A program made the translations under genes and the position numbers. DNA of 58,479 bases from a virus: positions 1-58,479 of the IMG/VR virus record IMGVR_UViG_3300009537_000011. The stretch is one strand, 5' to 3'. Below the pieces are notes generated by a model that was given only the letters and a program-made list of their open reading frames with translations, made no database searches and was not told the origin of the DNA. Numbering within the stretch: position 1 is the stretch's first letter; each line of letters begins with the position of its first letter. This document shows, one piece after another, positions 6,040 through 45,217 of this stretch.

Positions 6040-6165
6040 ATGTCAAAGCTAGGATTTAGGGGCACCCCCGTCAGCGACGAAGACAACTTGAAGCCCGTTC
6101 TTTGGTTATTGAGTATTCAAGAGTCGGATATCCGTTGGAGCAACCGGGGGTGCCCCTATGTCTGA
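6040..6165 (+). CDS. Possible 41-residue leader peptide
   Basis: ATG at 6040 opens 41 codons that end at TGA 6163-6165, eight bases inside the next gene. GGAGGTG lies 15 bases upstream, a long but usable spacing. The reading frame crosses both arms of the inverted repeat at 6058-6157, so ribosomes translating it would melt that structure. It could be a leader that couples translation to the ParB gene, or a chance frame. The peptide resembles nothing I know. Confidence 0.4.
   Translation: MSKLGFRGTPVSDEDNLKPVLWLLSIQESDIRWSNRGCPYV
6058..6157 (+). promoter_or_regulatory. Inverted repeat masking the ribosome binding site of the ParB gene
   Basis: AGGGGCACCCCCG (6058-6070) is the perfect reverse complement of CGGGGGTGCCCCT (6145-6157), with 74 bases between. 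The 3' arm contains the only Shine-Dalgarno-like bases of the gene at 6158 and ends one base before its ATG. In mRNA the pairing would block initiation. Translation of the small frame at 6040, a bound protein or a small RNA could open it. Confidence 0.65.
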
Positions 6166-7009
6166 AAGTCTCGACATCAAGTACATCAACCTGAGTGACG
6201 CGATCCCGTGGGACGACAACCCAAAAGACCATGACATTGGCGCGCTCATACGCTCCATGGAGCGGTACGGCTTCAAGGATGCCCCGATCTACGACGAGAC
6301 CAAGGGTTGCGTCATAGCCGGAAACGGTCGCATCATCGCGCTCAAGGTGATGCGAGACGACGGGATGGACCCACCTCGCGGCGTCGTCGAGGAAGAGGGG
6401 GACTGGAAGATACCGATTCAGTTCGGTATCGACGCGACGAGCCCGGAGGAGGCCGAGGCTTTCGGCATCGATCACAACAACATCACCATTCTCGGCGGAA
6501 ACGTGAGCATAGACGCGGTGATGGCGATATGGAATGAGAGGCAGCTGAAAACCGTGCTAGACAGGGTAGCGGAGAAGGGGGTCATGCCGATCTCTCTGGA
6601 TTGGGACGACTACTCGGCGATGAGGTCCGAGGGCGACGGTGCCCAGCCCGACCTGGTTCCGAGTGGCTCTCCGAGTCTGAAGGAGGGCGAGAGCCTTCTG
6701 GCGCTGTCCACAACGCTCAAGCCGCCGAGACACAGCGTCCGGCATGGCGACGTGTTCGTCTTGAACAACCGACACATGTTGGCGGTCATGTCGCCGATCG
6801 ATGACCACCAGGGGTGGGTGCCGCTCTTGTCTGCGGAGGCGAGACCGATCGATCTGTTCTGCCCGTTTCCGGGGCCATACGTATCGTTATCGGAAGAGGC
6901 GAAGATCAAGAGCCTGCTCCTCGTGCAACCCGACACGTTCATAGCCGGTCACATTCTCGACAATTACGAGGCGGTCCACGGGGCCACCGCGATAGCGAAG
7001 CTCCCGTGA
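6158..7009 (+). CDS. ParB-domain protein fused to degenerate DNA methyltransferase remnant
   Basis: A 283-residue protein. Residues about 8-140 are a ParB/sulfiredoxin-type domain: AIPWDDNPKDHD, IRSMERYGFKDAP and VIAGNGRIIALKVM (the G-H/N-G-R motif), then EAEAFGIDHNNI. Residues about 190-275 align by eye with the start of methyltransferase domains commonly fused to phage ParB domains: HGDVFVLNNRHMLAVMSP stands where GD..L..HRLLCGDST is usual, and LFCPFPGPY where a DPPY motif should be. The catalytic DPPY is thus missing, and the chain ends after QPDTFIAGHILDNYEAVHG. It is probably a DNA-recognition partner, not a methylase. It overlaps the TGT-like gene by GTGA. Confidence 0.7.
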   Translation: MSESLDIKYINLSDAIPWDDNPKDHDIGALIRSMERYGFKDAPIYDETKGCVIAGNGRIIALKVMRDDGMDPPRGVVEEEGDWKIPIQFGIDATSPEEAEAFGIDHNNITILGGNVSIDAVMAIWNERQLKTVLDRVAEKGVMPISLDWDDYSAMRSEGDGAQPDLVPSGSPSLKEGESLLALSTTLKPPRHSVRHGDVFVLNNRHMLAVMSPIDDHQGWVPLLSAEARPIDLFCPFPGPYVSLSEEAKIKSLLLVQPDTFIAGHILDNYEAVHGATAIAKLP

Positions 7010-7794
7010 CGACGGGATACCTCAAGGTTGGCATGGAGCACGTCTCCAGCGCCGCCCTATCGTGTAAGCACCTGTGCATCTCGGCTGACGAACTGACGAA
7101 GGGTTACGAGTTCCCCCCGGAGCTGGACATAGGTGGCGTCCTGCTGTACTCGGGCTCGAACGCCCTCGTCACGGGGGCCATGGGTCCAGACGATTCGTTC
7201 GATGAGGTAAGGCGCAGGGACCTTGCCTCATTCGACGGGTGGGAGGAGATGCTTCATCAATATCGAGACGTTCTGGATAGATACCCGGAGCGCGCTGCGG
7301 CCATAGAGGTGGACCTCGGAGATTTCTCGTCGCGTGCGAGGTCCAGGGAGGCGCTCTCCCGACGAGGCGTCACGCCCATCTGGAGGCCATTCGACGATAC
7401 AGAGCAGCAGTTCGACGAGCTGGCCAGTGAGCACGGGGCCGTGGCGGTCGCTCCGATGGTGGGGCTTCACAGGGCGATGAGGGCAGCAATCCTCGGTTGG
7501 GTGCAGCGGAAAAGCAGGGAGGTCAAGGTTCGTGTACACTTGATGGGTGCCCATCCCAGCGATCTCCTCGTGGCTTTCCCCCCAGACAGCTATGACACGA
7601 CGTCGTGGATGTCGTCGGTGAAGTGGGATGGGCACACTCCTCGGGTCTGCATGAAAAGGTTCAGTCGTCTTGACAGGTCATTCCACTACGCAGTCGGCGA
7701 CGGCAGGCAGTGGAGCACCGGTGTGGCGATGGGCGCGTTCGGAGCATCGCTTCAGGCGCGATTCCTCGGAGGGGTGAAGGAGAGGTTCAAGTGA
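7006..7794 (+). CDS. TGT-like (DpdA-type) DNA base transglycosylase candidate
   Basis: GTG at 7006 overlaps the previous stop as GTGA; the frame opening at 6814 is a shadow. The 262-residue chain follows the order seen in phage DpdA proteins, which exchange guanine in DNA for a 7-deazaguanine: LLYSGSNALV (about 47-55), IEVDLGDF (100-107, Asp103 a candidate catalytic residue), PIWRPFDD, AVAPMVG, then VHLMGAHPSDLL (177-188) and SYDTTSW (195-201). The usual DSGAF near residue 48 reads YSGSN, a change at a normally conserved Asp. No QueC, QueD, QueE or FolE genes were recognised, so any base would come from the host. Identification is by motif order, not homology search. Confidence 0.6.
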   Translation: MTTGYLKVGMEHVSSAALSCKHLCISADELTKGYEFPPELDIGGVLLYSGSNALVTGAMGPDDSFDEVRRRDLASFDGWEEMLHQYRDVLDRYPERAAAIEVDLGDFSSRARSREALSRRGVTPIWRPFDDTEQQFDELASEHGAVAVAPMVGLHRAMRAAILGWVQRKSREVKVRVHLMGAHPSDLLVAFPPDSYDTTSWMSSVKWDGHTPRVCMKRFSRLDRSFHYAVGDGRQWSTGVAMGAFGASLQARFLGGVKERFK

Positions 7795-8117
7795 GTGTCG
7801 AAGAATACGACGACTTCATCAGGGGCCAAGTTGAGATGGTGCAAATGACACGAGACGAAGTCTCCACGATCATTCTCGGCGGGACCATCATTGCCGGTCG
7901 GGAGATGAACGAAGAAGAGATTGCGTCCACCGTAGGGTCGGCTCGGCTGTTCGTCGCCCTCGGCAGGCTCGTGACCGGGATCGTAGAGGGGAAGCTGATG
8001 ATGCTGGTCACAGACGGAGAAATGACCATAGCCGAGGCGACGGAAGAATACAGACAGTGCGCGGGGTCTGGCATAGCGGAGAAGATTGACGACTGGCTCG
8101 GATTGGTGGCAAACTAG
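7791..8117 (+). CDS. Hypothetical protein of the modification cassette (108 aa)
   Basis: Starts at GTG 7791, overlapping the TGT-like stop, with GGAGAGG upstream. The third gene of a coupled set, it is followed by a strong terminator, so the three act as one unit. The protein is helical and acidic (EEIASTVGSARLFVALGRLV; EATEEYRQCAGSGIAEKI). No known motif was seen. A regulator or subunit of the modification pair is only an inference from linkage. Confidence 0.72.
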   Translation: MSVEEYDDFIRGQVEMVQMTRDEVSTIILGGTIIAGREMNEEEIASTVGSARLFVALGRLVTGIVEGKLMMLVTDGEMTIAEATEEYRQCAGSGIAEKIDDWLGLVAN

Positions 8118-8157: not shown

Positions 8158-8196
8158 GGCCCACCTGGTTCCCCTTGCCAGGTGGGCCATTTTTTT
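8158..8196 (+). terminator. Rho-independent terminator before packaging genes
   Basis: GGCCCACCTGG (8158-8168) pairs perfectly with CCAGGTGGGCC (8178-8188), followed by A and seven T. It separates the replication/modification genes from the head genes and probably ends an early or middle transcript. Confidence 0.9.
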
Positions 8197-43611: not shown

Positions 43612-43845
43612 CTATCCTTTCTCATAGCGGGCGACCGGCACTCCGCAGATGGCTTCGATGGTCTCTCGTACGTCGAGCTGTTCACCGTCGGTCATGATGA
43701 GGCACGAGCCGACCGCCTCTCCCTGCGGCCCGACATGTCGGTACATGCGGGCGATGGTCGCAGGGTTGACAACGACGATCGAGAGGTCGTCGTCGAAGCC
43801 GCGAACGGGTTCGCGTGTGAGCCACAGGAAATCGAGCACCATCAT
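43612..43845 (-). CDS. Hypothetical protein (77 aa) after the DUF932 gene
   Basis: ATG 43845 overlaps the DUF932 stop (ATGATGG). The protein starts MMVLDFLWLTREPVRGFDDD, then has SIVVVNPATIARMYRHVG and SCLIMTDGEQLDVRETIEAI, an alternating strand-helix design. No family recognised. The coupling suggests it works with the DUF932 protein or is simply co-expressed. A longer frame running through the neighbouring gene is a shadow. Confidence 0.66.
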   Translation of the reverse strand: MMVLDFLWLTREPVRGFDDDLSIVVVNPATIARMYRHVGPQGEAVGSCLIMTDGEQLDVRETIEAICGVPVARYEKG

Positions 43846-44951
43846 GCCACCCGGAGCGCCTTCGAGATCCGCTGCTCGGCGGTGAACCTGTCGTCGCTGT
43901 GCTGGATGTCCCTCGCGAGAGCGGTCGCTCCGTTTAGGATGTCCCACTTCGATCTCGCCTGGCCCTCTTCGTCGTATGCCCGCTTCACGATCTTCGTCGC
44001 ATCGCCTTTCGTGTAGCTGCGGTTGCGCAGGAAGGTTATGACGTCCTCGTCCGTCTTGCCAACGGTCTCAGCCTTCAGCTGAAGGATGCGCGCCTTGTCG
44101 CCCTCGGCGGAGGCGTTCGCGTAGTCGTAGAGAATCCGCGTGCCTTCGTAGAGGAACCGATCGGGCGCTCCGAGGGTGTGGCGAATTCTCAGCTCCTTGA
44201 CATCCTGCGAGCCCCAGATGATCCTGTTGTCGCAGACGACACGGTAGAGAAACGTCATCAGACCGAAGACGCACTTCCCGACCTCGCTGTTCCAGACGAT
44301 GAACCCCCGGAACAGGGTGTCTCCGTCGACCTCGATGGCGAATTCCGGGTCGACCAGGAAGATGAAGACGTCGCGGTCGCTCGCGTAGAGGGTGGTCGCC
44401 AGCTTCGGGTCCCTGTGAGCGTACGACGCTGCCGGGATCTTCCAGTTGCCATTGGCGTTGACCTTCACCACGGACTCGACGACCTGGTGATCCCAGATCC
44501 GCCCGTAACTGCCACCGGTCAGGGCCCGCAGCTCCAGGCCATCGTCGGTCTGGGTGTTCAGCGCCAGGATGGTGTTGTTCTCGTCTCGCAGGAAGTTCAG
44601 CCCGTATTGCAGGCAATCTGCGGCGAGCGCGGGGTGGATCTTCCTCATGTACGACGCCGGAGCGCCCGCCAGGGAGGACAGCTGCCCGAACGACCAGTGC
44701 GTGGGGGTGGAGACCTTACCCTCGATGTCAACGACCAGCGGCTCACCGTTGTACCCGGCGACGCCTCCGTCCGAATCCAGGACGACTTCGACGTCACCGT
44801 TCACGACCTTCAGTCGGTTGGGCATCGTCATACGCGGTGCCGATCGCTCGGCGCGACCCTTCGTGTGGCTGTAGAGATCCTCCAGGCTCAGGAATCGCTC
44901 GTCGTCCGGGCGGGTGAACCACTGCGTGCTTGCTTTGTAGATGTTTGCCAT
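43842..44951 (-). CDS. DUF932 (phage/plasmid-like TIGR03299) protein
   Basis: ATG 44951 with GAGGAG upstream gives 369 residues. Landmarks of DUF932 are LVVDIEGKVSTPTHWSFGQL, NFLRDENNTILALNTQTDDG, RALTGGSYGRIWDHQVVESV, FIFLVDPEFAIEVDGDTLFR, GFIVWNSEVGKCVFGLMTFL, RVVCDNRIIWG and the helical tail. DUF932 proteins are widespread on phages and plasmids, beside defence or recombination genes; their biochemical role is unsettled. This is the longest gene of the leftward unit. Confidence 0.88.
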   Translation of the reverse strand: MANIYKASTQWFTRPDDERFLSLEDLYSHTKGRAERSAPRMTMPNRLKVVNGDVEVVLDSDGGVAGYNGEPLVVDIEGKVSTPTHWSFGQLSSLAGAPASYMRKIHPALAADCLQYGLNFLRDENNTILALNTQTDDGLELRALTGGSYGRIWDHQVVESVVKVNANGNWKIPAASYAHRDPKLATTLYASDRDVFIFLVDPEFAIEVDGDTLFRGFIVWNSEVGKCVFGLMTFLYRVVCDNRIIWGSQDVKELRIRHTLGAPDRFLYEGTRILYDYANASAEGDKARILQLKAETVGKTDEDVITFLRNRSYTKGDATKIVKRAYDEEGQARSKWDILNGATALARDIQHSDDRFTAEQRISKALRVA

Positions 44952-45217
44952 CAGATGTAACTCCTCGTTCCAGTCGTTGTCGTAGGCTCCGCGTCCGGTT
45001 CGACCCAGACGTGAAGACACTTCGTAATTCCAGTCTTCGGGAGATAGAGACCTCCCGAACCATCGGCCATCTCGATCAGCACCTCCTCTGTTGTTTTCTG
45101 GATGACAGTTCCTTCTTTCCAGTATATCGGCGGGGTCCACCGGACACGTACCAGTGCCTCGACCTTCAGGTCGTCGTACTTCCTCAGCTCGACCCATCCG
45201 ACATCACGACTCTTCAT
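44951..45217 (-). CDS. Hypothetical protein with SH3-like strands (88 aa)
   Basis: ATG 45217. The strand-rich chain (LKVEALVRVRWTPPIYWKEG, TVIQKTTEEVLIEMADGSGG, LYLPKTGITKCLHVWVEP) resembles a small barrel of the SH3/Tudor type. There are no enzyme motifs. It is coupled to the DUF932 start by a one-base overlap and its start lies inside the preceding gene. Frames further upstream are antisense shadow. Confidence 0.66.
   Translation of the reverse strand: MKSRDVGWVELRKYDDLKVEALVRVRWTPPIYWKEGTVIQKTTEEVLIEMADGSGGLYLPKTGITKCLHVWVEPDAEPTTTTGTRSYI

Follow-up and report, generated by a model that had tools for sequence, protein, structure and literature searches.

The closest described systems to the gene pair analysed here are the actinophage clusters that combine ParB, DpdA and preQ0 genes (Coffee, Finch, Sonali, Cracklewink and Megan), in which a ParB-like gene lies directly or almost directly beside the gene for DpdA, accompanied by some or all of QueC, QueD, QueE and FolE and by an intact DpdA site. 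A second set comprises the dpdA-only phages (group 3 of Hutinet et al. 2019, PMC6884629), such as HK106, 7-11, Orion and AH07, which carry no synthesis genes and form the largest published group, with 76 phages (PMC6884629). The DNA of Orion is unmodified and its host makes no preQ0, and traces of modified base were found in the DNA of Salmonella phage 7-11 (PMC6884629). Bacterial TGT uses two aspartates, Asp280 to form the covalent intermediate and Asp102 to deprotonate the base that comes in; in the QTRT2 subunit of eukaryotic TGT, which is non-catalytic, both are replaced (PMC6165067). ParB-like genes are also found with other chemistries: one belongs to a thymidine hypermodification locus (PMC11955845), and ParBc genes occur near CmoX, their role being stated as unknown for the cytosine systems (PMC12783734).

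The locus studied here, encoding the ParB-like protein P0001 and the DpdA-related protein P0002, lies on a virus contig of 58.5 kb, a linear record analysed over its whole length of 58,479 nucleotides (the window). Like the actinophage clusters, it has a ParB-like gene beside a gene with the DpdA motif order, and the 4-bp overlap between the two genes is present in three of those clusters; unlike them, it has none of the synthesis genes and its active site is changed. The pair is of a known kind, with P0002 as a strongly diverged, putatively ParB-coupled DpdA-type protein.

Layout of the gene pair and its surroundings

The two open reading frames lie where they had originally been placed, P0001 at 6158..7009 (+ strand, 283 aa, a ParB-like head and a tail) and P0002 at 7006..7794 (+ strand, 262 aa, a derived, remote member of the TGT/DpdA superfamily), and overlap by GTGA at 7006..7009 (+), which holds the P0002 start codon GTG (7006-7008) and the P0001 stop codon TGA (7007-7009). 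Both frames show coding GC periodicity, and the open frame 5' of 7006 is devoid of it, supporting the GTG start at 7006. A third gene of 108 aa (7791..8117, +) overlaps the P0002 stop by another GTGA (7791-7794); searches of phrogs, Pfam and the phage collection found nothing similar to it. Behind it, a strong terminator-like hairpin of 12 pairs followed by a T run (8158..8188, +) marks the end of the cassette; the Rfam search returned no match at the locus. P0001 and P0002 are thus part of a GTGA-coupled cassette of three genes with an inverted repeat ahead and a hairpin behind, an arrangement that the original prediction had not described.

The inverted repeat is perfect over 14 nt. Its left arm, TAGGGGCACCCCCG (6057..6070, +), is separated by 74 nt from the right arm, CGGGGGTGCCCCTA (6145..6158, -), which ends on the A of the P0001 ATG start codon. 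Exact copies of the 13-mer core TAGGGGCACCCCC occur in the window only in the two arms, and the RNA of the inverted repeat folds better than all 200 of 200 shuffled sequences (z-score -4.0). The element at 6057-6158 could possibly serve as an operator pair or as an RNA stem sequestering the start codon.

In the left arm of the contig, genes for recombination, replication-initiation and DnaB-type helicase proteins are followed by the gene pair and then by the gene for the terminase large subunit. The nearest terminases are from Alphaproteobacteria, and the terminase relatives are alphaproteobacterial prophages, suggesting an alphaproteobacterial host. Elsewhere in the window, positions 43842-45197 on the - strand encode a DUF932-containing protein (phrog_1362).

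The ParB-like protein P0001

The first protein had been predicted to have a ParB fold, and a ParB-like head was confirmed at residues 1-140 (about 6158-6577). This region matched phrog_620 (E 1.9e-13), the ParB part of methylase family phrog_498 (E 5.4e-13), ParB in profile-profile comparison (98%, E 5.3e-14) and ParB proteins of Microbacterium and Streptomyces phages. Spo0J/ParB in the PDB was matched at E 0.0038 by a profile that includes P0001 itself, and Pfam ddrB-ParB only at E 0.025, which falls short of the cut-off. No close relative of P0001 was found in viral contigs, nor any close homologue of its tail.

The tail (residues 186-283, 6713..7006, +) had been regarded as the relic of a methylase that might act as a sequence-recognition subunit. 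It has no Pfam match, and a profile built from ParB-methylases of viral contigs, applied at whole length, aligned only the ParB head of P0001. Against the methylase-entry region of this profile, the tail scored -0.4 bits, and 742 of 10,000 shuffled sequences scored at least as high; the tail contains neither DPPY nor the SAM motif FxGSGT. At the place where it would be expected, the string GDVFVLNNRHML is similar to the GDLWxLGxHRLL found ahead of DPPY, but the resemblance ends there. With Pfam silent and the profile score at shuffle level, the methylase relic was rejected as unsupported.

Among contigs related by their terminase, an intact ParB-methylase lies upstream of the terminase (G002, L106), and others have ParB genes without methylase (G001 and G007), so that loss of a methylase domain is conceivable. 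In L106 (contig IMGVR_UViG_2516493024_000003, locus positions 1471-2715), the ParB-methylase lies just upstream of the terminase genes, occupying the place that the ParB-TGT cassette has in the window.

P0002 and its altered active site

The original prediction that the second protein follows the TGT/DpdA motif order was supported by alignments and by the profile searches it had called for. P0002 matched phrog_887, 'queuine tRNA-ribosyltransferase', at E 1.2e-4. A DpdA profile made from 14 phage DpdA proteins, P0002 excluded, scored it at 22.1 bits, compared to 4.1 bits for the best of 2000 shuffled sequences. Among the 12,694 ORFs of all loci fetched, P0002 reached E 4.6e-5 with this profile, the other matches being DpdA-type proteins only and no unrelated ORF appearing at E <= 1, and in the six frames of the window it was the sole significant match. 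When P0002 was used as a single query in the reverse search, the first eight ranks were all DpdA, with individually weak E-values (best 0.017) and a hypergeometric probability of 1.5e-18 for the first seven, which overstates independence since several of the top DpdA proteins are closely related. The crystallised DNA-guanine transglycosylase 7ui4 was matched at E 0.0022 by a profile that includes P0002. Pfam and NCBIfam gave no match for P0002; bona fide phage DpdA proteins, that of phage 9g included, have no Pfam TGT match either, so the silence of Pfam says little.

An AlphaFold model of P0002 reached a mean pLDDT of 49 (35 from the single sequence). In BFVD it matched phage queuine tRNA-ribosyltransferases (E 6e-4 and weaker), which is partly circular because the alignment behind the model already contained DpdA, and the PDB fold search with the same model returned nothing at E <= 0.001. 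Taking the sequence searches together, the homology of P0002 to DpdA is secure. No close relative was found by tblastn in phages, viral contigs or species genomes, and one plasmid match was non-significant; the active-site changes described below are therefore known from a single sequence.

In the phylogenetic tree, P0002 grouped with the DpdA proteins of preQ0-making phages (100/100), outside both the 9g-like (Queuovirinae) clade and the singleton/dpdA-only clade, and its position among the ParB-linked actinophage enzymes was without resolution. Its branch is the longest in the tree (3.71; median 0.55), and the tree program warned that such long rows are placed unsurely. The TGT superfamily is tRNA-modifying by ancestry, which would fit a P0002 that acts on host tRNA and not on DNA, with the ParB gene as an unrelated neighbour. 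We regard this as very improbable, given that P0002 groups with phage DNA-type DpdA in a tree from which bacterial tRNA TGTs were left out, and that ParB genes recur beside DNA-modifying genes (see below); P0002 also has no Pfam tRNA-TGT match, a point it shares with true phage DpdA.

We then compared the active site of P0002 with those of 33 other phage proteins of the DpdA superfamily, at about 20% identity, a level that leaves residue equivalence insecure near position 50 and over 101-106. P0002 keeps the position of the catalytic nucleophile, Asp197 (7594..7596, +; YDTTSW versus DSSSW, whose Asp is invariant), together with Pro192 and the invariant His178 (7537..7539, +; H in 33/33). Four positions identical in all 33 relatives are replaced. 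The first is the Asp of DSGAF (D in 33/33), lost at Tyr48-Ser49-Gly50 (7147..7155, +), where it pairs with Gly50 in the MAFFT alignment and with Tyr48 in the register originally adopted. The others are the Asp of LD-V, now Glu101 (7306..7308, +; D in 33/33, register uncertain), the His of FH, now Arg127 (7384..7386, +; H in 33/33), and the first Gly of the GG loop, now Ala149 (7450..7452, +; G in 33/33). In either register, residues 42-61 of P0002 contain no acidic residue. The Asp-to-Tyr change originally noted in DSGAF is thus right as to the loss of the aspartate and register-dependent as to the tyrosine, and a single change understates the divergence, as three further invariant residues are replaced.

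By our own assignment from motif order, Asp197 would correspond to Asp280 of bacterial TGT, and the DSGAF aspartate to Asp102 of Z. mobilis TGT. Since four invariant residues are replaced, the putative base-activating aspartate included, canonical base exchange by P0002 alone appears doubtful; two features that define a functioning DpdA, the DSGAF aspartate and the base-pocket residues, are apparently absent. Like QTRT2 (PMC6165067), P0002 would be a TGT relative with a replaced base-activating aspartate and a degenerate base site. Unlike P0002, which keeps Asp197, QTRT2 has also lost the nucleophile (to Glu), and it is paired with a catalytic subunit that shares its fold. A second TGT gene was considered as such a partner for P0002; the six frames of the window contain none.

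These observations lead us to propose, at about an even chance, a phage DNA-modification cassette in which P0002, descended from a phage DNA-guanine transglycosylase, works with a ParB-like partner. P0001 would bind DNA and bring P0002 to phage DNA or orient it there. P0002 would still have the nucleophile for attack on the base-sugar bond and would have lost the base-activating and base-recognising residues of its relatives, so that, acting alone, it most likely does not perform the standard guanine-to-7-deazaguanine exchange. It may either act on another base or have become a non-catalytic subunit that binds DNA or acts as a partner, a role comparable to that of QTRT2 in eukaryotic TGT. A further reading, in which a ParB-guided enzyme with the kept nucleophile and a remodelled base site inserts a base other than a known 7-deazaguanine in place of guanine or another base, or removes bases at sites chosen by ParB and puts none back, seems quite improbable to us. 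Of the base-replacement system originally predicted, the pairing of ParB with TGT and the link to DNA modification are retained, on the grounds of homology and gene neighbourhoods, but replacement itself is an overstatement in view of the four changed residues.

The original prediction also presented the absence of QueC, QueD, QueE and FolE as new. The absence holds for this record, in which family searches with detected positive controls gave no match for QueC, PTPS/QueD, FolE, radical-SAM (QueE) or Vut/YhhQ, the record being linear and possibly incomplete or a fragment; it is not new, as the dpdA-only phages share it (PMC6884629). P0002 might be a working singleton DpdA that, with ParB, puts host-supplied preQ0 or preQ1 (7-deazaguanine) into phage DNA. 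Alphaproteobacteria often make preQ0, and the terminase relatives of this phage are prophages of such hosts. In addition, P0002 retains the nucleophile and the order of motifs, many phages carry dpdA but no synthesis genes, and 7-11 has its traces of modified base (PMC6884629). Against this stand the four replaced invariant residues, among them the Asp that would activate the incoming base, the position of P0002 outside the dpdA-only clade, the lack of a preQ0 transporter gene in the record, and the unmodified DNA of dpdA-only Orion, whose host makes no preQ0 (PMC6884629). Moreover, the sampled singleton enzymes, unlike P0002, form a separate clade that keeps the residues counted here, Orion and 7-11 lying outside the alignment. 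On balance, we consider a working singleton enzyme a possible but fairly unlikely explanation.

The long branch of P0002 would also suit a transglycosylase that is decaying or inactive, leaving a role only for the ParB-like protein, for example as a repressor or as a packaging or partition factor, and ParB genes indeed stand upstream of the terminase without an adjacent TGT in the related phages G001, G002 and G007. Such a remnant is improbable, however, for a gene whose frame is intact, whose codon periodicity is normal and which is tightly coupled by GTGA to both neighbours, and whose product keeps the nucleophile and its flanking motif.

ParB-like genes beside base-modification genes elsewhere

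The partnership proposed for P0001 and P0002 was considered against gene neighbourhoods in other phages. A ParB-like gene lies at most two genes from dpdA in 7/7 actinophage dpdA regions read (Megan, Finch, Sonali, Coffee, StAugustine, Cracklewink and Mufasa8), a small sample in which one case was selected from ParB matches; in Finch, Sonali and Coffee the ParB-like gene shares 4 bp with dpdA. For the 9g-like clade, a ParB-like gene was present in 0/6 regions over the stretch read. The precedent named in the original prediction, a ParB gene beside dpdA in Rosebush, proved accurate: in the Rosebushvirus Coffee, ParB-like gene 1 overlaps dpdA (gene 2), and in sister phages the same position carries a ParB annotation. 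In Microbacterium phage Megan (L084:670-2543), two tandem DpdA-like genes, both keeping the catalytic residues counted, follow the ParB gene and possibly encode a heterodimer.

Pantoea phage AH07 resembles the present locus in that its ParB gene overlaps a singleton transglycosylase gene and no synthesis genes occur in the stretch read; its ParB is of another type (HTH_ParB). Similarly, a ParB-like gene adjoins DNA base-modifying enzymes in MementoMori, MO526, SPF_0923, Tonitrus and the CmoX phages, whose thymine or cytosine hypermodification differs in chemistry, involving oxygenases, glycosyltransferases, amino acid transferases or carboxymethylation. In MO526, the ParB-like gene is near genes for a Tet/JBP oxygenase and an amino acid:DNA transferase, and in Salmonella phage SPF_0923 (L101:1935-3651) it precedes and overlaps a TET-associated glycosyltransferase gene.

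ParB-like genes are thus found repeatedly next to DNA hypermodification enzymes of unrelated chemistry, and ParB as a general partner of these enzymes is a sound reading of this recurrence. A minimal pair of ParB and TGT without synthesis genes offers a small system for asking whether ParB targets modification. If the altered pocket of P0002 reflects a new base specificity, it would point to one more modified base; a non-catalytic P0002 would instead be the equivalent of QTRT2 in a phage.

Only one TGT gene was found among the terminase-related phages, a singleton of another clade in G007. In the terminase-related phage IMGVR_UViG_2563366505_000004 (L099:14-2142), a DUF4942/methyltransferase-like gene overlaps a singleton TGT gene, and in a further viral contig (L183:10-4134) a singleton TGT gene, a QueD-like gene and two tandem ParB-methyltransferase genes follow one another consecutively.
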